Origin: an uncultured Lachnospiraceae bacterium
GTDB taxonomy: Bacteria; Bacillota; Clostridia; Lachnospirales; Lachnospiraceae
Direction of reading: 5' to 3'
NCBI GenBank assembly: GCA_934376945.1
Contig: CAKRPI010000073.1
Span: forward strand, 1-11,427
Length of the DNA: 11,427 nucleotides
Within the stretch, counting starts at the first letter, position 1, and every line of letters starts with the position of its first letter. A model generated the notes under the pieces. The model was given only the letters and a program-made list of their open reading frames with translations. It searched no databases and was not told the DNA's origin. Below, piece by piece: positions 348 through 11,025 of this stretch. Made by a program: the position numbers and the translations under genes.

Positions 348-350
348 TGG

Positions 351-444
351 ATCGTTCTCTGGAGACACCTGTCTTGGACAGGGGCCGAAGGTGCAAATGA
401 CGCGCAGCGTCTTGAATCTCTCAGGCAAAAGGACAGAGGATGCT
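351..444 (+). promoter_or_regulatory. Glycine riboswitch, second aptamer
   Basis: The second aptamer is the more canonical. It has CTCTGGAGA at its 5' side (357-365), the core GGCCGAAGGTGCAA (383-396), then CTCTCAGGCAAAAGGACAGAG (418-438). P1 pairs CTCTG (357-361) with CAGAG (434-438). Internal hairpins are CCTGTC/GACAGG (368-373 with 377-382) and GACGC/GCGTC (399-403 with 407-411). A possible expression platform overlaps it: AGCGTC (406-411) can pair with GATGCT (439-444, one G-U), and CTCT (418-421) with AGAG (435-438), followed by a five-T run at 448-452. That structure would compete with both P1 and the internal hairpin, which would suit a transcription-termination switch that is on with glycine. 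This mechanism is inferred and the stem is imperfect. Confidence 0.9.
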
Positions 445-720
445 TGGTTTTTATGACATTTCTGGTTTGAGCAAGCGCATAGCGTACAGCATTCTGATAA
501 GAGGAATGCATATAATACGTTCTGATGCTGCTGCAGATTCCATGTAAGCGGAGTTCTCCGTCTTCTTTCGAACGGTCTTTTCTATTTCCCGTATTGTTAT
601 GTTGCACAACCTATCACTGATCAGAGACAGGTCAAAATTTGTAAAGCGAAGGGAAATCTCTGCGTTTTTCTGGTTGACTCTGAACAGCGATCATAACATG
701 AAAAGAGGAGAGATTTGGTT
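445..720 (+). other. Long untranslated leader between riboswitch and symporter
   Basis: This 276-nt stretch holds no gene on either strand. It is far longer than a riboswitch needs to reach its gene. Structure visible in it includes a short palindrome GTTGCACAAC (601-610), an imperfect dyad at 610-631 centred on CTGATCAG (617-624), and an exact 8-bp inverted repeat AAATCTCT (654-661) with AGAGATTT (709-716). The last overlaps the ribosome-binding site, so the leader could fold to hide translation initiation. A TATAAT sequence at 511-516 has no -35 partner. A second layer of control is plausible but not demonstrated. Confidence 0.5.
706..710 (+). promoter_or_regulatory. Ribosome-binding site of the symporter gene
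   Basis: AGGAG (706-710) lies 10 nt before the ATG at 721 and only 4 nt before an in-frame TTG at 715. The spacing favours ATG 721 as the start, so the protein would begin MWNMVNQ rather than two residues earlier. The site overlaps the AGAGATTT arm of an inverted repeat whose partner lies at 654-661. Confidence 0.65.
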
Positions 721-2139
721 ATGTGGAACATGGTGAATCAGTTTCTGGTAAAGGTCGATGACCTTGTATGGGGAGTACCGCTTATGGTACTGATTCTGGC
801 AGGTGGTATCCTTTTGACGGCACGTCTCGGGCTTCTTCAGGTGCGAAGACTGCCGCTTGCTCTGAAATGGATGTTTAAAAATGAGGAAGAGGGAGACGGT
901 GAAATCTCCAGCTTTGCAGCGCTTTGTACAGCGCTGAGCGCAACAATCGGAACCGGCAATATCGTTGGTGTGGCAACGGCAGTCTGTGCAGGCGGACCGG
1001 GCGCGCTGTTCTGGATGATCGTGGCAGCATTTTTTGGTATGGCGACGAAATATGCGGAGGGTCTTCTGGCTGTGAAATACCGCGTAGTAGCAGAGGATGG
1101 CCATAGCCTTGGCGGACCGTTCTATTACATTGAGCGCGGTATGGGAACAAAATGGAAATGGCTGGCGAAGATTTTTGCTTTCTTTGGTGTCTGTGTTGGT
1201 CTGTTCGGTATCGGTACCTTCAGCCAGGTAAACGGTATCTCCAGCGCAGTTCAGAACTTCTTTGATCCGGATAAAACAAATTGTGTGACACTTCCGTTCC
1301 TCGGAACGTATTCCTGGGCGGTTGTAATTGCATCTTTGATTCTGGCTTTCTGTGTCGGAGCGATTCTGATCGGCGGTCTGAAGCGTATTGCAACGGTCAG
1401 CCAGATCATCGTTCCGTTTATGGCGGTAATCTATTTTGTATTCAGTGTGGCATTGATCCTGCTGAATATCACACATGTGCCGGCAGCAATTGTAACTGTT
1501 GTAAAGGGCGCATTTAATCCATCGGCAGTTACCGGTGGTGTGGTCGGCAGTATGATCGTTGCCATGCAAAAAGGTGTTGCGCGCGGTATCTTCTCAAACG
1601 AGGCAGGACTTGGAAGCGCGCCGATCGCAGCGGCTGCAGCACAGAGCAAGGAACCGGTGCGTCAGGGACTGGTAAGTATGACCGGTACTTTTATTGATAC
1701 GATTGTTATCTGTACGCTGACCGGACTTTCCATCGTCGTAACAGGTGCATGGCAGGTAGACGGACTGGAAGGAGTCCAGGTGACAACGTATGCGTTCCAG
1801 AACGGACTTCCGATTCCGGCGCAGGTATCGTCCTTTGTTCTGATGATCTGTCTGGTATTTTTTGCATTCACAACAATTCTCGGATGGGATTACTACAGCG
1901 AGCGTTGTCTGGAGTATCTGACAAACGGCCATAAGAAGACGATCCTCACTTACAGATGGCTGTATATTTTTGCAGTCTTTATCGGCCCGTACATGACGGT
2001 GAGTGCCGTATGGACGATTGCAGATATTTTTAACGGACTGATGGCAATTCCGAATATGATTGCATTATTTGCATTGAGCGGGGTTGTGGCAAAGGAAACA
2101 AAGAGCTTCTTCTCGGCGAATAAGCATATTGAAAAATAA
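721..2139 (+). CDS. Sodium:alanine/glycine symporter (AGCS family)
   Basis: This is a 472-residue integral membrane carrier that imports alanine and/or glycine with Na+ (amino acid:cation symporter family, TC 2.A.25). Visible family signatures are GTGNIVGVATA (residues 77-87), GGPGALFWM (91-99), GMATKYAEGLLAVKYR (106-121), GGPFYYIERG (131-140) and SNEAGLGSAPIAAAAA (292-307). About ten strongly hydrophobic segments run through the protein. Its length is normal for the family and it appears intact. The start is taken at ATG 721 rather than TTG 715 because of spacing from AGGAG at 706-710. The gene stands alone between its own promoter and a strong terminator, behind a tandem glycine riboswitch, which points to glycine as substrate or at least as signal. 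The choice between alanine and glycine cannot be made from the sequence. Family assignment is secure; substrate is inferred. Confidence 0.95.
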   Translation: MWNMVNQFLVKVDDLVWGVPLMVLILAGGILLTARLGLLQVRRLPLALKWMFKNEEEGDGEISSFAALCTALSATIGTGNIVGVATAVCAGGPGALFWMIVAAFFGMATKYAEGLLAVKYRVVAEDGHSLGGPFYYIERGMGTKWKWLAKIFAFFGVCVGLFGIGTFSQVNGISSAVQNFFDPDKTNCVTLPFLGTYSWAVVIASLILAFCVGAILIGGLKRIATVSQIIVPFMAVIYFVFSVALILLNITHVPAAIVTVVKGAFNPSAVTGGVVGSMIVAMQKGVARGIFSNEAGLGSAPIAAAAAQSKEPVRQGLVSMTGTFIDTIVICTLTGLSIVVTGAWQVDGLEGVQVTTYAFQNGLPIPAQVSSFVLMICLVFFAFTTILGWDYYSERCLEYLTNGHKKTILTYRWLYIFAVFIGPYMTVSAVWTIADIFNGLMAIPNMIALFALSGVVAKETKSFFSANKHIEK

Positions 2140-2155: not shown

Positions 2156-2191
2156 GACTCCCCGTAAAATAGACTTTACGGGGAGTCTTTT
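2156..2191 (+). terminator. Intrinsic terminator after the symporter gene
   Basis: A perfect 13-bp stem, GACTCCCCGTAAA (2156-2168) with TTTACGGGGAGTC (2175-2187), encloses a 6-nt loop and is followed by TTTTGTCT. It begins 16 nt after the symporter stop codon and separates that unit from the promoter at 2229. Confidence 0.92.
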
Positions 2192-2316: not shown

Positions 2317-5300
2317 ATGCTGACAAAGAATGATATCATCCATTTTTATGATCGATATAAGAAAAATCTGAAAAAAGAAGAGTTGGTCATCGCGCGGCTT
2401 CTGAAGGCGGAGGATGAGGAGGCGTGGATCGAGAACCTGAAGAAAAAATCGCGGGTGATGCGCAGCCTTTATATTGAAAATGAAGCGCTTCTGAACATGT
2501 ACGTCCGCCCGTTTTTAGAGAACGAAGACATTTTAAACGACGCGCTGGCGGAAGAGTTCCTGCACCAGATCATTCAGGCAGACCGGGAAGGATATATGGA
2601 TGACCTGGCGATGCGTGAGGTTGTGGAGCGGCTGGAGCCGTACTTTGAGAAAAAGGGCAATTTAAATGCCTGCATCTGGACACTCAATATGATCGGCAGC
2701 TTTTACAACCGTAATTCAAGCGTGGAGGACGGAAAGCGCAGCGCACAGTGCTACCGAAGGCTGCAGGAGCTGAGTGACCGGTATTTTGAGATTGAGGATT
2801 TTGATGTGCGTAAAAGAATCCTCTATTCTTATTATAATTATCCTGTCGTGTTGTTTAATTTCGGGCTGATCGGGCCGAAAGGTATTCTGGAGGAGATGGA
2901 GCGGGCGCTCGCGTTTTATACGGATGAGCGCGTGGTGGCGCTTGACGGAGAGCGGTTTGATTTTAAGCAGATTATTGAGGAGCTGAATTACGATCTGCTC
3001 GGAAACTACATGATTGCGAGCGAGCGGGACACGGTCGATCCGGAGCTTCTGGAGCGGGCGGGGAAGGAACTCGGAAGATATTATCAGAGCTATCTGGATG
3101 AGGGCTGCGCCCCATATGAGGTGCCGGATGAAATCTACTGCAATTATCACCGGTATCTGTTTTTCTCCGGAAAAATAACGTTCACGGAGTTTGTGGAGGA
3201 TTACAAGCGCTTCTGCGATTACAGCGTGGAGCACGATACGATGGAGGAGGACGGCGATTTCACGGACAGCCGTCTGTTCCAGGTGGCGGTGAATCATCTG
3301 ACGAACATCATTTACAGCCTGAAATATTATGAAAAAGAATATGAGGGAGATCCGAATCTTGGGCGGGACTGTATCAATCAGTACATCCAGGTGCTGCGGA
3401 ATGTGCCGCGTGCGGGGAACGCCGCGTTTGTCAATGACGTGATGTACCGTTCTCTGTGCGGTCTTCTGGAAATTCTGACGGATGACGAGGAAGGCTCGCA
3501 GGTTCTGACGAATATTCTGATGAACCGAGATGAGATCACGCTGATTCATTCCTCTATGGTGGAAAAAATTTCACATCGGATTCTGGATACTGTTTTGAAA
3601 AAACGGCCGGAGCTGCTGGTCGGTGCACTGGAATGTACGAGTGTGATAGAAGTGCTGGAGCAGCAGGAAAAATTCTTCAACTTTATGGAAGAGTCTGCAA
3701 AGCTTTTTGATATAGGAAAGCTGCAGATCGCGGAGATCATCAACAAGCAGTCGCGTCGGCTGACAGGCCGCGAGAGAAAACGAATTTATGAGCATCCAAG
3801 AGCCGGGACGAAGGTACTGGAAAAAATCCCTTCCATGCAGAAGTACCGGGACATGATTCTGGGACACCACAAATCCTGGGATGGAAAAATGGGCTATCCG
3901 AAGGAGTTTGACAACTGTGCAAGCCCAAGCCGGATGCTGATCGAGCTTTTGAGGATCAGTGACTGCCTGGATGCGGCGACGGATTTCATTGGAAGAAGCT
4001 ACAGCACGCCAAAAAGTTTCGCACAGTGTCTGGAAGAGTTCAGCCAGGGTAAAGGAGGGCTGTACTGTGAGGAGCTGATCTGCCTGCTGGAAGAGGATAC
4101 GGAGCTGCAGGAAGATCTGACGTATCTTCTGGAGGCAGGACGGATTCGAACGTATTATGAGGTCTTCAGGGGGATGATGGGACCGGAAGAGGAAGCAGGA
4201 GAAGGAAATCTGCAGGAGCGCTGGAAGCAGGTTGAACCGGATGAACAGGAGGAGCTGCTTGGCATCCTGCACGAGAGTGGTCAGGAAAGCCGCAGCGTGA
4301 TCCGGGCACTGGCGCGCAATTCCCTGCTGATTCTTTCCGTAAATATGCGAAGCGGGGATTATACAGTGACATATCGCGGAAAGAGCAGACTGTTTGCGGA
4401 ACTGGAAGACGGAAGATACGAGAATTTTCTGCAGAACTGCCTGGCACCGGCGGCAGATGAGGCGGACTGGGAGGAGGTCCGGTACAAACTGAGGCTGAAA
4501 ACGCTTGCAAAATCGTTTGCCGAGCAGAGCGGAAGCTATGAGACGGAGCTGCGCATCTGCACAGATCAGGTCATGCGCTGGGTGCGTTTTCAGTTTGTGC
4601 AGACGGATGAGATCAACGTCATTCCGAATCAGATGATTGTCATTTTGCAGGATGTCCATGAGACGAGGAGCCGGAGCGAGCAGCTTAAGGAGGCCATGAA
4701 GGAAGCGTATGATACGGCAGAGAAGGCGAACCGTGCAAAGAGCCTGTTTCTGACGAGCATGTCGCATGATATCCGCACACCAATGAACGGCATTATAGGT
4801 ATGACGCAGATCGCCAGAAAGCATCTGGATGATACTTCGCGTATAGAAGACTGCCTGCGGAAAATAGAGAAATCCTCGAAACACCTGCTGGGGCTGATCA
4901 ATGAAGTGCTGGATATGGCAAAGATCGAGAGCGGAAGCATGCAGCTGAAAGAAGAGGCTCTGTCGCTTCCGGAACTGGTCGAGGCAGTCGGAGAGGTGTG
5001 CCGTACGGATGCGGAGAAAAAGCATCAACGCTTTGATGTGGTGGTCAGCGGCATCTGGCATGAGCAGGTGATGGCGGATGCGGTGAAGCTGCGCCAGATT
5101 CTGACAAATCTGACGGCAAATGCTGTGAAATATACGCCGGACGGTGGGCATATCGAACTTCTGGCGGAGCAGCTGGCCATTCGCAAGGAAGGGTACGGCA
5201 GCTATCGCTTCATAATAAGAGACAACGGAATAGGTATGTCGAAGGAGTTTCAGAAGCAGCTGTTCCAGCCGTTTTCCCGCGAGGACAACAGCATGACGAA

Positions 5301-5883
5301 TGTGACGCAGGGTACGGGTCTTGGCCTTTCCATCGTAAAAGCAGTGGTTGATATGATGGACGGCAGCATCGAGGTAAAGAGTGTACAGGGAAAAGGAAGT
5401 ACCTTCACCGTACTGCTGCAGCTGGAGCTTGCGGAAAAGACGAAGGGAGAGAACGAACAGGAAGAGGAAATGCACTTTGACGGCGGCAGGATTCTTCTGG
5501 TGGAGGATAACGAGCTGAACCGGGAAATTGCCCTGGAGCTGCTTGTGGATCTCGGTCTTGTGGTGGAGGTGGCAACGAACGGGCAGGAAGCAATCCAATG
5601 CATCGAACGTCAGCCGGATTGTTATTATGAGCTGGTATTTATGGACATTCAGATGCCGGTATTAAACGGTTATGATGCGACGAGAAAGATCCGTGCAGCT
5701 GGCACGAAATATACAGAGGGACTGCCGATCATCGCGATGACGGCAAATGTGTTCCGGGATGATATATTAGAGGCGGTCGAGAGCGGTATGAACGACTACG
5801 TGACGAAACCGATTGATATGAAGGTCATCACCGGAGTGCTGTGGAAATGGCTGCACGGAAGCAGCGCAGGAAAAAAGAAGTAA
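2317..5883 (+). CDS. Hybrid histidine kinase with degenerate HD-GYP domain
   Basis: A 1188-residue soluble multidomain signalling protein with no membrane segment or signal peptide. ATG 2317 is preceded by GGAGG (2304-2308) at 8 nt. Residues 1 to about 405 are helical, possibly TPR-like, and not assignable to a known family. An HD-GYP-like phosphodiesterase domain spans about 409-600: H411, then FDIGK (464-468) where the family has HDIGK, EHP (492-494), HH (517-518), DGKMGYP (522-528) and D549/D552. The HD histidine is thus Phe, so c-di-GMP hydrolysis may be lost. A PAS-like segment follows (about 660-790). The kinase core has the H-box SHDIRTP with phospho-acceptor H817, N935 of the N-box, DNGIGM (969-974) and GTGLGLSI (999-1006). 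A C-terminal REC domain (about 1057-1180) has D1064, phospho-acceptor D1110, T1142 and K1164. There is no HPt or DNA-binding output. It lies 30 nt before potA and is probably co-transcribed with it, suggesting a link to polyamine uptake. Kinase and REC calls are secure; the signal is unknown. Confidence 0.9.
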   Translation: MLTKNDIIHFYDRYKKNLKKEELVIARLLKAEDEEAWIENLKKKSRVMRSLYIENEALLNMYVRPFLENEDILNDALAEEFLHQIIQADREGYMDDLAMREVVERLEPYFEKKGNLNACIWTLNMIGSFYNRNSSVEDGKRSAQCYRRLQELSDRYFEIEDFDVRKRILYSYYNYPVVLFNFGLIGPKGILEEMERALAFYTDERVVALDGERFDFKQIIEELNYDLLGNYMIASERDTVDPELLERAGKELGRYYQSYLDEGCAPYEVPDEIYCNYHRYLFFSGKITFTEFVEDYKRFCDYSVEHDTMEEDGDFTDSRLFQVAVNHLTNIIYSLKYYEKEYEGDPNLGRDCINQYIQVLRNVPRAGNAAFVNDVMYRSLCGLLEILTDDEEGSQVLTNILMNRDEITLIHSSMVEKISHRILDTVLKKRPELLVGALECTSVIEVLEQQEKFFNFMEESAKLFDIGKLQIAEIINKQSRRLTGRERKRIYEHPRAGTKVLEKIPSMQKYRDMILGHHKSWDGKMGYPKEFDNCASPSRMLIELLRISDCLDAATDFIGRSYSTPKSFAQCLEEFSQGKGGLYCEELICLLEEDTELQEDLTYLLEAGRIRTYYEVFRGMMGPEEEAGEGNLQERWKQVEPDEQEELLGILHESGQESRSVIRALARNSLLILSVNMRSGDYTVTYRGKSRLFAELEDGRYENFLQNCLAPAADEADWEEVRYKLRLKTLAKSFAEQSGSYETELRICTDQVMRWVRFQFVQTDEINVIPNQMIVILQDVHETRSRSEQLKEAMKEAYDTAEKANRAKSLFLTSMSHDIRTPMNGIIGMTQIARKHLDDTSRIEDCLRKIEKSSKHLLGLINEVLDMAKIESGSMQLKEEALSLPELVEAVGEVCRTDAEKKHQRFDVVVSGIWHEQVMADAVKLRQILTNLTANAVKYTPDGGHIELLAEQLAIRKEGYGSYRFIIRDNGIGMSKEFQKQLFQPFSREDNSMTNVTQGTGLGLSIVKAVVDMMDGSIEVKSVQGKGSTFTVLLQLELAEKTKGENEQEEEMHFDGGRILLVEDNELNREIALELLVDLGLVVEVATNGQEAIQCIERQPDCYYELVFMDIQMPVLNGYDATRKIRAAGTKYTEGLPIIAMTANVFRDDILEAVESGMNDYVTKPIDMKVITGVLWKWLHGSSAGKKK

Positions 5884-5913
5884 GGTGCAGAGCTATGGAA
5901 GGAGAATAGGGAG

Positions 5914-7491
5914 ATGGAAGAAAAGAAGCTGATCGAGTTTCGGAATATTGTTAAAAGCTTTGACGGCCAGATTGTGTTAAAGGGAGTCAATCTGGATATC
6001 AATGAAAAGGAGTTTGTGACCTTGCTCGGACCGAGCGGCTGCGGAAAAACAACACTGCTTCGGATTCTTGGCGGTTTTCTTGATGCAGACGAAGGCCAGG
6101 TGATCTTTGACGGAGAGGAAATCAGCAAAAAACCGCCATATAAGCGGGAACTGAACACTGTTTTTCAGAAGTACGCACTTTTTCCCCATCTGAATGTCTA
6201 TGAAAATATTGCATTCGGGCTGAAGATCAAAAAGATGAGTAAGGATATCATTGACCAGAAGGTCATGAAAATGCTCAAGCTGATTGGTCTGGAGGGTTTT
6301 GAAAAGAAAAATACGACGCTGCTTTCCGGAGGCCAGCAGCAAAGAGTCGCAATTGCACGTGCGCTTGTCAATGAGCCGAAGGTACTGCTGCTGGATGAGC
6401 CTCTGGCAGCACTCGATTTAAAACTGAGAAAGGAAATGCAGTATGAACTGAAGCGGATTCAGCAGGAAGTCGGCATTACCTTTATTTTTGTCACGCATGA
6501 TCAGGAAGAGGCGCTGACGATGTCAGATAAGATTGTGGTCATGAAGGGCGGTGAGATTCAGCAGATCGGTACTCCGGAGGAGATTTACAATGAACCGGCA
6601 AACCGCTACGTGGCAAACTTCATCGGAGAGAGTAACATCATTCCGGGTGTCATGCTGGAAGATTATCGGGTGCGTTTTGATGATATTACCTTTGAATGTG
6701 TGGATTTCGGTTTTAAGGAAAATGAACCGGTGGACATTGTCATAAGACCGGAGGATATTGATATTGTAAAGCCGGAGGAAGGAAAAATGACCGGCGAGGT
6801 ATTAAGCGTGCTCTTTAAGGGCGTTCATTATGAAATCATGGTGGAAACGGTTCCCGGTACAAGCGTTACAGTCAATATGAGCGTGGTTAAAAATCAGGAT
6901 GTGACCGGAGACGATGGAAAAGAAAAAATGAGTGCCGGAAACTTTTATGTGGATATCGAGGATGTGGCGGAACTTGATGACAAGGAAATTATTGCACGTG
7001 CCAATGCGCAGGCATGGAATCCGGAGACAGATGATTATATTTCGATTGCAAAAATTGAGTATGATATCAAACCTGAGCTGGGTGAATATCCGGTGCGCTT
7101 CTCTACTGCGGCGGGAACAATGATCGAACGCAGGATTTTTGTTGTCAATCAACCGTTTGTAAAGAATGAAAAGGCAAATGAGGGTGTCATGGCGTTCAGC
7201 TTTACAAAGACGGTGGATGAAATTCAGGAGTCGCAGGCGCTCGATACGGATCTGAAGACCTGGGCAAATGCACAGGGCTGGAAGCTCAGCAATGAGGAAC
7301 AGAGCGTGGACATTTATGTAGATTATGATTTTGAGCCGGAGAATATCAAAGAAGGCGTTTATCAGATCACATTCTCTACCGAAGGACGCGAGTTTAAGAT
7401 TCATACAACCGATTACTCAGAGGTGGGAGCGCAGGTCGGCCTGACCTTCTTCCCGGAGGATCTGCACGTTATGTCAAGGATGGTGTACTAA
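5914..7491 (+). CDS. potA: Polyamine ABC transporter ATPase PotA with inserted repeats
   Basis: This is the ATP-hydrolysing subunit of a spermidine/putrescine importer, acting at the inner face of the membrane with PotB and PotC. Residues 1-240 form a complete ABC domain: Walker [10 protein letters not shown] (39-47), Q-loop Q85 in FQKYALFPH, signature LSGGQQQR (137-144), Walker B LLLDEP (158-163) and H-loop H195. A TOBE domain begins near 272 ([10 protein letters not shown]) and ends with [15 protein letters not shown] just before the stop. About 170 extra residues (roughly 325-503) lie inside that TOBE domain, so the protein has 525 residues against the usual 350-380. The extra part contains two related units, near 354-413 and 439-500, sharing ANAQxW, Y-D-[IF]-[KE]-PE and FST at an 88-residue spacing. 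ATG 5914 follows AAGGAG (5899-5904) at 9 nt. The reading frame is intact and catalytic residues are all present. Function of the ATPase is confident; polyamine specificity comes mainly from the neighbours; the insert is of unknown role. Confidence 0.93.
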
Positions 7492-8328
7492 ATGAAACGA
7501 TTTTCACAGCTTGCGGTGCCCTATATTGCATGGGTCGTGATGATGCTGATCCTTCCGATGGCACTGATTGCGATTTATTCAGTCACGGAACAGGGAAACA
7601 GCATTATTTCCTTTACTTTTACGTTGGAGCACTACGCCAAGTTTTTTACAGATCCGGATTTCCTGATCGTATTGTGGCGTTCACTGCTCATTGCGCTGAA
7701 AACGACAGTAATCTGCCTGCTTCTTGGTTATCCGATTGCCTATTTTATCTCAAGAAGCAGTGAAAAAATGCAGAATCTGCTTGTACTTGTGATCACGATT
7801 CCGATGTGGATTAACATGCTGGTGCGTACGTACGCATGGATCGGTCTTCTCAGCGAGGGAGGACTGATTCAGAGGCTTCTTTCTCTTGTTGGACTTGGCA
7901 AAGGAGAACTTCTTTATACGGAAGGCGCAGTTCTTCTTGGCATGGTGTATAACTTTCTGCCGTTTATGGTATTACAGATTAATACATCACTTTGCAAGAT
8001 GGATCATTCGCTTTTGGAGGCAAGCTCAGATCTTGGCGCAAATCTGCGTCAGACGTTTTGGAAGGTGACATTTCCACTGTCGCTTCCCGGAGTCATCAAC
8101 GGAATTACGCTTGTCTTTCTTCCGGCGGTCAGCTCCTTCTTTATTCCGAAGCTCCTTGGAGGCGGTCAGTATTTCCTGATCGGAAACTTGATTGAAAATC
8201 AGTTTATTACTGTGGGAGAGTGGAATTTCGGAAGTGCGATTTCCATGATCATGGCCGTAATTATGATGCTGCTGATGATGGCAGTACGCCAGGTGGAGAT
8301 CCGCAACAACGGCGGAAAGGAGGAATAG
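7492..8328 (+). CDS. potB: Polyamine ABC transporter permease PotB
   Basis: This 278-residue protein is one of the two membrane subunits of the importer. About six hydrophobic segments are visible (near 11-30, 55-82, 94-120, 143-165, 197-222 and 246-266). The cytoplasmic EAA loop that docks onto the ATPase reads LLEASSDLGANLRQTFWKV (174-192), with the typical E176-A177 and G182. Length and motif match the PotB/CysT-type permease family. ATG 7492 follows the potA stop codon with no gap, so the two genes are probably translationally coupled; the only ribosome site is AAGGA (7476-7480), 11 nt upstream and inside potA. The N-terminal YIAWVVMMLILPMAL is typical for PotB. The last codons carry the strong ribosome site for the next gene. 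Confidence 0.93.
   Translation: MKRFSQLAVPYIAWVVMMLILPMALIAIYSVTEQGNSIISFTFTLEHYAKFFTDPDFLIVLWRSLLIALKTTVICLLLGYPIAYFISRSSEKMQNLLVLVITIPMWINMLVRTYAWIGLLSEGGLIQRLLSLVGLGKGELLYTEGAVLLGMVYNFLPFMVLQINTSLCKMDHSLLEASSDLGANLRQTFWKVTFPLSLPGVINGITLVFLPAVSSFFIPKLLGGGQYFLIGNLIENQFITVGEWNFGSAISMIMAVIMMLLMMAVRQVEIRNNGGKEE
8316..8323 (+). promoter_or_regulatory. Strong ribosome site for the potCD GTG start
   Basis: AAAGGAGG (8316-8323) lies inside the last codons of potB and ends 9 nt before GTG 8333. This supports the GTG as the true start of the fusion gene, and implies coupled translation across the 4-nt gap. Confidence 0.8.
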
Positions 8329-8332
8329 ACCG

Positions 8333-10225
8333 GTGAAGAAAGAAAACAGAACCTTTGGAAAAGTCCTGATGGCGCTTGTGATCGTGTTTTTTTATCTTCC
8401 GATCATCTATATGGTCGTCTTTTCCTTCAATTCCGGAAAATCACTGACCAGCTTTACCGGCTTTTCACTGCGCTGGTATAAGCATATGATGGAGTCGCAC
8501 ACGATGATGGAGTCTCTGTCCACTACATTCAGCATAGCGCTGATCGCAACAGCCGTTTCCACACTTGCAGGTACAATTTCTGCAATTGGACTGTCAAAAT
8601 CGAAAAAAATCATTCAGAATCTGATGGAGCAGGTTAATAATCTGCCGATGATGAATCCGGAGATTGTAACGGCAATCGGTTTTATGCTGCTGTTTATTAC
8701 GTTTCGGGTGGAAAAGGGTTATGTAACGATGCTGCTGGCGCATATTGCATTCTGCATTCCGTACGTTATGCTCTCCGTGATGCCTAAGATCCGTTCTCTG
8801 GATCCGAACCTTGCGGATGCGGCAATGGATCTTGGCGCAACGCCATGGCAGGCACTGACAAAGGTTATTGTGCCGCAGATCATGCCGGGTATCGTTTCCG
8901 GTGCATTGATTGCGTTTACGATGTCCGTGGATGACTTTATTATTTCTTATTTTGTAACGGGCGGCGGTGTGAAAAACCTGAGCATCACGGTGTATACGAT
9001 GAGTAAGCGTGTTAATCCGAGTATCAATGCGATCTCAACGCTCGTAGTTGTGATTATTACGATGGTGCTTCTGCTGATCAATCTGGCACCGGTGGTGATG
9101 GCAAAACGGGAAAAGAAAGCAGAGATCAGCCGGAAAAAGCAGATAGTACCGATCGCAGCGGCAGCTGCAGCGGTTGTGGCAATCGTGCTTGTGATGCAGT
9201 TCAGAAAAGAGAATTCTGTCCTTCCGTATGCGGGGCAGACGCTGCATGTTTACAACTGGGGTGAGTATACCGGTGAAAATATCCTGCGGGAGTTCGAGGA
9301 AAAGACCGGAGCGAAGGTTGTGATGGAAAACTTTGATTCCAACGAGCAGATGTATATTAAGGTTGCAAACGGCGAATCCTACGATATTCTGGTTCCAAGT
9401 GATTATATGATCCAGAGGCTTATTCAGGAGGGATATCTACAGAAGCTGGATCACAGCAAGCTGGATTGTATGGATAAGCTCTGCGAGGATGTAGTCGGAC
9501 TGCCGTACGATCCGAAAAACGAATATTCAATTCCATATTTCTGGGGTACGGTTGGCATTGTATATGATAAGACAAAGGTTGATCCGGAGGATCTTGAGCG
9601 CGAAGGCTTTGATATTTTCCGGGATCAGAAATACAAAGGTCAGATTTATCTGTACGATTCGGAGCGGGATTCTTTCATGATGGCATTGAAGACACTTGGC
9701 TATTCCATGAATACCGAGGATGAGGAACAACTGCAGGAAGCGTATGAGTGGCTGGTAGACTGTGTACAGACAATGGATCCGGAGATTGTGACGGACGAGA
9801 TTATTGACAATATGGCGCAGGGACGTAAGGCGCTTGGTCTGATTTATTCCGGAGACGCAACGTACGTCATGTCAGAAAATGAAAACATGGGCTATTATCT
9901 TCCGGAAAGCGGAACGAATCTGTGGTCAGATGCCATGGTAATTCCGGCAAATGCGAAGAACCCGGATCTGGCGCATGAATTTATTAATTTCGCCAGTGAT
10001 TATGAGGGAGCCTATGACAATTCCAGCTTTGTGGGTTATACCTCCTCAAATCAGGAGGTCATGGATACACTTTCCGGCGAGGGCGGAGAGTACGAAGGAA
10101 TTGATGCCTATGTGCCGCGTTCGGGAAACCCGAATGATGAGGTATTTGAATATAACGATAACACGAGAAAGCTGATAGCAAACCTGTGGAGTAAGGTGAA
10201 GATTGCTGCAAGTAATGCAGGTTGA
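8333..10225 (+). CDS. potCD: Fused polyamine permease PotC and binding protein PotD
   Basis: A 630-residue fusion of two importer subunits normally made separately. Residues 1-257 are a PotC-type permease with about six membrane segments and the EAA loop NLADAAMDLGATPWQAL (159-175). A lysine/arginine-rich stretch (258-269, KREKKAEISRKK) is followed by a seventh hydrophobic segment (271-288), then by a PotD-like periplasmic-type binding domain (about 303-625). The charge pattern puts the linker inside and the binding domain outside, tethered to the membrane, so no separate lipoprotein is needed. Likely ligand contacts by analogy with PotD are W309/Y312 in YNWGEY, VPSDY (395-399 region), the acidic run D442/E444/D446, Y505 in IYSGDA (a Trp in E. 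coli PotD), and W531/D533 in LWSDAMVIP. GTG 8333 is chosen because of AAAGGAGG upstream. Such PotCD fusions are known in other Firmicutes. Frame is intact. Substrate is a polyamine; spermidine versus putrescine is not decided. Confidence 0.93.
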   Translation: MKKENRTFGKVLMALVIVFFYLPIIYMVVFSFNSGKSLTSFTGFSLRWYKHMMESHTMMESLSTTFSIALIATAVSTLAGTISAIGLSKSKKIIQNLMEQVNNLPMMNPEIVTAIGFMLLFITFRVEKGYVTMLLAHIAFCIPYVMLSVMPKIRSLDPNLADAAMDLGATPWQALTKVIVPQIMPGIVSGALIAFTMSVDDFIISYFVTGGGVKNLSITVYTMSKRVNPSINAISTLVVVIITMVLLLINLAPVVMAKREKKAEISRKKQIVPIAAAAAAVVAIVLVMQFRKENSVLPYAGQTLHVYNWGEYTGENILREFEEKTGAKVVMENFDSNEQMYIKVANGESYDILVPSDYMIQRLIQEGYLQKLDHSKLDCMDKLCEDVVGLPYDPKNEYSIPYFWGTVGIVYDKTKVDPEDLEREGFDIFRDQKYKGQIYLYDSERDSFMMALKTLGYSMNTEDEEQLQEAYEWLVDCVQTMDPEIVTDEIIDNMAQGRKALGLIYSGDATYVMSENENMGYYLPESGTNLWSDAMVIPANAKNPDLAHEFINFASDYEGAYDNSSFVGYTSSNQEVMDTLSGEGGEYEGIDAYVPRSGNPNDEVFEYNDNTRKLIANLWSKVKIAASNAG

Positions 10226-10410: not shown

Positions 10411-11025
10411 ATGATCAAAAATATTATCTTCGATATCGGAAATGTACTGGCGAGCTTTCGCCCCAGGGAAGTTCTGGAAGAGATGGGATTGGAGGAAGCA
10501 GAGGTAAGAGCGATTCTTGATGCAACGGTGTTTGGTCCGTACTGGATTGAGCTGGATCGCGGTGTGATGGAGGAGGAAGAGGTGATCGCTGCAATGCGCA
10601 GCTGCGTACCGCAGCGATACCTGGCTGATTTTGAACGCTTCTTCGCAGAAGAAACGGGGAAGCTTGTAAAGTCACTTCCGTATGCGGCAGACTGGCTGAA
10701 GGATTTGAAGGGGCGAGGCTATCACGTGTATCTGCTCTCAAACTACCCTGTTGGACTGTTCGAGATCCACAGTCCGCATTTTACCTTCCTGCCGTACACG
10801 GATGGGAGAGTCGTTTCCGGCTATGTCAAATGCGTGAAGCCGGATGAGCGGATCTATCGCTGCCTGCTGGAAAAATACAGCTTAAGGCCGCAGGAATGCG
10901 TCTTCCTTGACGACCTGGCGGAAAACGTGGAGGGGGCAAAAAAGCTTGGAATCCATGGGATTCACTTTCAGGGTTATGAGGATGCGAGCGCGAAGCTGGA
11001 ACGTATGTTGGCAGAGACAGAATAA
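10411..11025 (+). CDS. HAD-superfamily phosphatase, YihX-like
   Basis: A 204-residue cytoplasmic hydrolase of the haloacid dehalogenase superfamily, subfamily IA. Motif I is FDIGNV with nucleophile D8; the usual second aspartate is G10, as in the YihX (glucose-1-phosphate phosphatase) group, whose FDLGNV it resembles. Motif II is LLSN (S110), motif III K143 in KPDERIY, and motif IV FLDD (D167-D168) followed by AENVEGA. The cap region carries ELDRGVMEEEEV, like the ERGEISDEAF stretch of YihX. ATG 10411 follows AAAGGAG (10399-10405) with a short 5-nt gap. It is on the same strand as the pot genes but separated by 185 nt of structured sequence, so it may be a separate unit. No clear promoter is visible. 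Family is secure; the sugar-phosphate substrate is only suggested by similarity. Confidence 0.88.
   Translation: MIKNIIFDIGNVLASFRPREVLEEMGLEEAEVRAILDATVFGPYWIELDRGVMEEEEVIAAMRSCVPQRYLADFERFFAEETGKLVKSLPYAADWLKDLKGRGYHVYLLSNYPVGLFEIHSPHFTFLPYTDGRVVSGYVKCVKPDERIYRCLLEKYSLRPQECVFLDDLAENVEGAKKLGIHGIHFQGYEDASAKLERMLAETE

Follow-up and report, generated by a model that had tools for sequence, protein, structure and literature searches.

What does an HD-GYP domain do inside a histidine kinase when the histidine of its HD dyad is missing? The question is raised by the window analysed here, a stretch of 11,427 nucleotides from an uncultured Lachnospiraceae bacterium, probably of the gut (contig CAKRPI010000073.1 of assembly GCA_934376945.1), in which an open reading frame (ORF) with an ATG start (2317-5883, forward strand) encodes a hybrid histidine kinase of 1188 residues, as judged from the ORF list, the translation and Pfam. 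The dyad of its HD-GYP domain reads F464-D465. On balance, we lean towards the domain being a cyclic-dinucleotide receptor, probably for cyclic di-GMP (c-di-GMP), that controls the kinase without hydrolysing its ligand. One key catalytic residue is swapped in every kinase relative examined, whereas the pocket is largely retained, so that the probable role of the domain is to sense the nucleotide and not to destroy it. The support from this analysis comes from the domain order, the fold match, the absence of the HD histidine, six retained metal ligands, the nesting of the kinases among H-bearing kinase-free proteins, and the intact kinase and receiver residues.

Pfam recognizes HD_5, HisKA, HATPase_c and Response_reg domains in the protein, the HD_5 profile (PF13487) matching residues 443-570 with 44.8 bits against a cut-off of 27.2. 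An AlphaFold2 model of the whole protein, built with 63 aligned sequences (mean predicted local distance difference test 80, predicted template modelling score 0.56), places helices up to about residue 390, followed by the HD-GYP domain, a mixed alpha/beta PAS-like section at about 669-779, the kinase and the receiver. The order given in the preliminary description thus holds, with the PAS-like part coming from the model: no PAS family is matched by Pfam in this protein, and the relative P0096 is listed with PF08447. Pfam matches no family at all in residues 1-390; a kinase-free relative, L085, has a TPR_2 match at residues 127-158 (32.1 bits, cut-off 27), and the modelled N-terminal helices would appear to be TPR-like. 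Hydropathy averaged over 19 residues peaks at 1.49, too low to predict a membrane helix, in agreement with the single soluble chain described earlier. That description also called the domain order unusual; it is absent from the literature searched, but recurs throughout a family and is not peculiar to this protein. In the 63-row alignment, the phosphoacceptor H817 is histidine in 62 rows (one gap) and the receiver D1110 is aspartate in 61 (two gaps), the N- and G-box positions examined in HATPase_c are retained in 61-62 rows and gapped in the remainder, and N931, N935, the G-box glycines, D1064 and K1164 are conserved alongside. The protein thus has the H, N, G-box and D residues of a hybrid histidine kinase in place and, with the active residues of both kinase and receiver preserved, is expected to signal by phosphotransfer.

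Searches with the whole-protein model (Foldseek and VIA) returned listings crowded with kinases and receivers that were uninformative about the HD-GYP part, and the best 60 entries of a PDB sequence profile search were of the same two kinds. The HD-GYP domain was then modelled alone. Residues 390-640 match 4r8z, 4mcw and 9rbz best, which, with the HD_5 match, bears out the HD-GYP fold. The residues named at the outset (H411, F464, D465, H493, H517-H518, the GYP motif and D549) are all present in the translation. The reference enzyme PmGH from Persephonella marina (PDB 4mcw) shares this fold, and its H189, D222, H250, H276, H277 and D305 all have counterparts here. The GYP motif, G526-Y527-P528, is intact, with a spacer one residue longer (DGxxGYP). 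The catalytic metal-ligand set is incomplete, the counterparts of PmGH H221 and E185 being F464 and I407; many other HD-GYP proteins, forming a large group, likewise lack E185. PmGH differs in being an active phosphodiesterase that has H221 and E185 and no kinase. Alanine at H221 essentially abolished its activity (PMC4159591). Since F464 occupies the place of this histidine, hydrolysis has likely been lost, as the preliminary description supposed.

The histidine is missing from every kinase-type relative examined. Position 464 is F in 49, L in 9 and Y in 5 of the 63 proteins of the first search, and among 89 aligned proteins of this architecture, including the present one, it is F in 67, Y in 13, L in 9 and H in none. 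Phenylalanine is therefore not universal, and a point mutation or sequencing error at F464 is ruled out by the absence of histidine from all 89 rows. The kinase form was found in all five genomes searched of the G848 genus, where L077 and L112-L115 all read FDIGK. With no histidine in the 89 proteins or in four further genome copies, F464 reflects more than chance. Of the 89 rows, 88 retain the full set of the remaining six PmGH-type metal ligands, the sole exception being P0086, with Q at 411. Most members likewise retain Y527, R560 and Y562, and the R-x-Y spacing of the last two equals that of R650/Y652 in DvhD, discussed below (PMC13090378, PMC4159591). K468 is kept in 79 of 89; all nine rows with L464 carry M468, so the lysine needed by PmGH is gone there too.

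The hybrid rows were collected by word-based searches that took this protein as seed and were limited to about 8000 candidates; they comprise the 63 first-search proteins (this one included) and proteins from a later alignment of 39 identifiers. The nearest relatives, P0002-P0004, share 84-88% identity with the protein over residues 1-640. Ten fragments or chimaeras judged by length, coverage or Pfam to be without a full HD region were left unaligned (P0064, P0066-P0068, P0070, P0074-P0076, P0097, P0098), and P0073 was omitted as a near copy of P0072. A HisKA domain is annotated in 85 of the 89. The other four (P0017, P0065, P0071, P0072) we tentatively read as truncated or frame-shifted, the tails of P0071 and P0073 resembling another frame. 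A single-sequence scan of genome contigs gave only a weak receiver-domain match.

Published systems suggest that binding can survive partial loss of the metal centre. In the PmGH complex with c-di-GMP, a subunit held the G-site iron only, and Y285, R314 and K317 touch the nucleotide (PMC4159591). DvhD from Desulfovibrio vulgaris (PDB 9rbz, 9rc0) is an inactive HD-GYP receptor for which no hydrolysis was found; its HD dyad reads SQ, its double histidine is replaced by M and N, and c-di-GMP was bound with no metal seen, Y621, R650 and Y652 being among the contacts (PMC13090378). The counterparts of PmGH Y285/DvhD Y621, PmGH R314/DvhD R650 and DvhD Y652 are kept here; that of PmGH K317 is not. 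DvhD differs in having a periplasmic dCache domain, with no kinase described (PMC13090378), and in the extent of its losses, whereas here H411, D465, H493, H517, H518 and D549 remain and only the counterparts of the HD histidine and E185 are missing. In DvhD, c-di-GMP binding splays the stalk helices leading to a PAS domain (PMC13090378). By analogy, a former c-di-GMP phosphodiesterase would have become a receptor: a cyclic dinucleotide, most likely c-di-GMP (an identity that we purely infer), would be held uncut in the old active site and move the PAS-like domain and signalling helix, thereby relaying the bound state to the HisKA-HATPase core. This would set the flow of phosphoryl groups to the protein's own receiver and then to a partner, the sign of the response and its output being equally conjectural.

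A precedent among hybrid histidine kinases is the cytoplasmic SgmT of Myxococcus xanthus, in which a c-di-GMP-enzyme domain that is catalytically incompetent serves as c-di-GMP receptor; there the receptor is a C-terminal GGDEF domain, reported to sequester the kinase in space, and a GAF domain is the primary sensor (PMC3509222). PA2572 of Pseudomonas aeruginosa, a YN-GYP protein, likewise has its HD histidine replaced and c-di-GMP degradation was undetectable, but it is a REC-YN-GYP response regulator with both HD residues changed and is not part of a kinase (PMC3411652). No HD-GYP receptor inside a histidine kinase turned up among the papers listed by the literature searches, which miss most subscription journals; the accessible portions of PMC6637768 and PMC1183210 contain nothing on kinase-fused or degenerate HD-GYP domains.

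Proteins with the same N-terminus and HD-GYP domain exist without the kinase (L038, L079-L088 and others), mostly of 600-700 residues where complete, and share the longer DGxxGYP spacer in the rows printed. They differ at the HD site: of 38 rows, 36 are readable there, with H in 32 (L043 being counted as H although its next residue is N), Y in 2, F in 1 and A in 1, and all seven ligands are present in 29 of the 36. The HD histidine that the preliminary description proposed to look for among homologues is thus present in most of the kinase-free form and in none of the kinase form examined. A few kinase-free proteins have other C-terminal domains. In a Pfam scan of five kinase-free or related proteins, the module was followed by a GNAT-like domain in L087 (5998-8337, +; over the cut-off) and L085 (6842-9142, -; just under it), and in L096 (4730-8140, -) the N-terminal-helical HD-GYP module shares one frame with an M32 carboxypeptidase, the HD dyad being intact in all three. 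L088 has a C-terminus as long as those of L085 and L087 and groups with both in the tree. L089 carries two tandem kinase-free genes (5288-7195 and 7199-9109), the first with an intact HD dyad and the second reading FD, a His-to-Phe change beside an intact copy.

The genome searches behind these rows were queried either with residues 1-640 or with an alignment of the same stretch, few candidates being scored per genome. In the class of genome G001, 78 of 341 genomes matched, mostly by the HD-GYP stretch alone; among the subset of these matches with loci or fetched sequences looked at, two are family members, namely G317 and G283, the latter with a match that spans most of the query. In the order of G283, 10 of 197 genomes matched and seven were taken as family rows, L029-L031 being left out since they resemble ordinary HD-GYP proteins. 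In the family of G088, 26 of 397 genomes matched, two with the kinase form (G848, G564) and the others with the kinase-free form; at a strict cut-off of 1e-60, 1 of 392 matched in the order of G088, and none of six matched in the family of G081.

We built a tree from 71 rows of the HD-GYP region, with column 464 masked and five ordinary HD-GYP proteins as root. It includes 30 kinase rows (28 of the 87 P rows, L077 and L078); left outside it are two fragments (L093, L099) and P0103, an ordinary HD-GYP protein with Y at the HD site and Q at 517. The kinase rows form one clade (support 100/99) nested among kinase-free rows, and the 11 kinase-free rows of the enclosing group (99/99) all have H. 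The branch just below the kinase clade is weak (85/46), and the bootstrap was nearly but not fully settled (0.989). Because the kinase clade nests among H-bearing proteins, the simplest reading is that a single loss of the histidine probably took place on the same branch as the gain of the kinase. That this lineage was disarmed by one substitution at the fusion and, with its metal centre retained, turned into a c-di-GMP receptor that carries metal and feeds a soluble phosphorelay, is a further proposal that we advance tentatively and find somewhat easier to doubt than to accept. If true, it would define a new receptor class, an HD-GYP receptor in a histidine kinase with metal ligands kept, unlike in DvhD, and would connect c-di-GMP directly to a two-component phosphorelay in bacteria with relatives that are rich in GGDEF genes. 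The H-bearing kinase-free proteins and the H-less kinases offer a natural before-and-after pair for the change from enzyme to receptor by few substitutions.

Several observations weigh against the receptor reading. PmGH K317 aligns with S563, K566 being close but unaligned. R560 and/or Y562 are lost in a subclade (P0054, P0089-P0094, L077) and one of the two is changed in P0069 and P0096, so the pockets of these proteins may not hold a nucleotide. The kinase-free L041 (Y), L044 (A), L107 (Y) and the second gene of L089 (F) have also lost the histidine; the loss therefore needs no kinase and is not strictly tied to the fusion, and in the hybrids it is one event and not a repeated correlation. 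Word searches seeded with this protein and limited to about 8000 candidates could have overlooked a kinase form that is distant and still bears H. Two kinase-bearing genomes have 22 and 30 GGDEF matches, but GGDEF genes occur in all 16 genomes tested (8 to 57 matches), including three without a family member found, so that their presence is weak support. Finally, DvhD binds its ligand after losing metal ligands, and their retention here could point to a metal-based function.

This last point leads to the alternative that the retained metal centre, mono- or binuclear, is itself the sensor, of Fe/Mn availability, oxygen, nitric oxide or redox state, with the nucleotide pocket a relic. The six ligands persist together in 88 of 89 hybrids though hydrolysis is probably lost, even in the subclade with a damaged nucleotide loop; yet most members also retain Y527, R560 and Y562, which a pure metal sensor would not require, and the change from H to F, Y or L takes away a metal ligand. 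We consider this explanation unlikely. Rather unlikely, too, is a structural or docking module, in which the HD-GYP fold would bind no small ligand and relay signals from the N-terminal repeats or a partner to the kinase: near-invariant active-site residues exceed what folding alone should need. PA2572 does signal without detectable c-di-GMP degradation (PMC3411652), which would suit such a role. The TPR-like look of the N-terminal region would suit it as well. The TPR fold often binds proteins or peptides. Least likely, in our estimate, is a domain that retains phosphodiesterase activity, either slow or directed at a different substrate, thanks to a rearrangement of the metal site whereby D405 would partly stand in for the histidine. 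Aspartate occupies site 405 in 83 of 89 kinase rows and in 4 of 6 ordinary HD-GYP rows, whereas 26 of 38 kinase-free rows have H (16) or Q (10) there, a difference that may reflect compensation within the metal site; alanine at PmGH D183, the place of 405, abolished activity, and E185 is one of two PmGH ligands whose loss left some activity. Against these stand the essentially inactive H221A enzyme and the absence from 10 of 89 rows of K468, the counterpart of a lysine on which PmGH activity depends.

Table 1. Features of the window (hybrid rows: the 89 aligned kinase-type proteins).
Feature	Positions	Strand	Basis or remark
Sodium:alanine-type symporter gene	715-2139	+	ORF list, Pfam
Terminator-like hairpin, 13 pairs	2156-2187		Between symporter gene and kinase gene
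Hybrid histidine kinase gene	2317-5883	+	ORF, translation, Pfam
All-helical N-terminal repeat region, residues 1-390	2317-3486	+	AlphaFold2 secondary structure
HD-GYP domain, residues 395-620	3499-4176	+	Pfam HD_5; fold match of residues 390-640 model
H411 (PmGH H189)	3547-3549	+	H in 88/89 hybrid rows
F464, codon TTT, at HD-histidine place (PmGH H221)	3706-3708	+	Alignment
D465 (PmGH D222)	3709-3711	+	89/89 hybrid rows
H493 (PmGH H250)	3793-3795	+	89/89 hybrid rows
H517-H518 (PmGH H276-H277)	3865-3870	+	Both 89/89 hybrid rows
GYP motif, residues 526-528	3892-3900	+	Y527 in 88/89 hybrid rows
D549 (PmGH D305)	3961-3963	+	89/89 hybrid rows
R560 and Y562 (PmGH R314, Y316)	3994-4002	+	R 82/89, Y 80/89 hybrid rows; PmGH alignment
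PAS-like fold, residues about 668-780	4318-4656	+	AlphaFold2 secondary structure; PF08447 listed for P0096
HisKA with phosphoacceptor H817	4735-4935	+	Pfam, residues 807-873
HATPase_c	5077-5427	+	Pfam, residues 921-1037
Receiver domain with acceptor D1110	5491-5832	+	Pfam Response_reg, residues 1059-1172
potA	5914-7491	+	ORF list, Pfam
potB	7492-8328	+	ORF list, Pfam
potC-potD fusion, one 630-residue ORF (permease and binding protein)	8333-10225	+	ORF list, Pfam
HAD hydrolase gene	10411-11025	+	ORF list, Pfam

The kinase gene is followed after 31 bp by the polyamine-type ATP-binding cassette (ABC) transporter genes potA, potB and potC-potD (5914-10225, +), a gap that suggests co-transcription; any functional link is putative. 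Fused potC-potD frames similar to that of the window occur in G081 (52% identity) and G088 (53%). A conserved link to polyamine transport was considered and is unsupported by the scant neighbourhood data: an amino-acid-type ABC transporter lies upstream of the kinase gene in L078, and an energy-coupling factor riboflavin-type transporter gene is next downstream in four of five copies in the L077 genus. A blastp comparison of all frames of at least 130 codons linked the three lineages only via the kinase, its receiver and HD-GYP parts, general ABC ATPases and antisense shadow frames. Around the G564 kinase (L078:2992-18094), genes for FapA, an HD-GYP protein and a GGDEF-REC-HD-GYP protein lie downstream, with the amino-acid-type transporter just upstream. 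Opposite the kinase gene of the window, two long antisense frames (3571-5598, 675 residues; 2716-3549, 277 residues; both -) are probably shadow frames of the coding strand. Relatives bearing organism names are Lachnotalea sp. AF33-28 and an Agathobacter metagenome-assembled genome, which by themselves make a Lachnospiraceae origin of the window likely. A glycine riboswitch aptamer (RF00504, 64.7 bits) was found at 349-446 (+) of the window, upstream of the symporter gene, a position that would fit glycine control of symporter expression.

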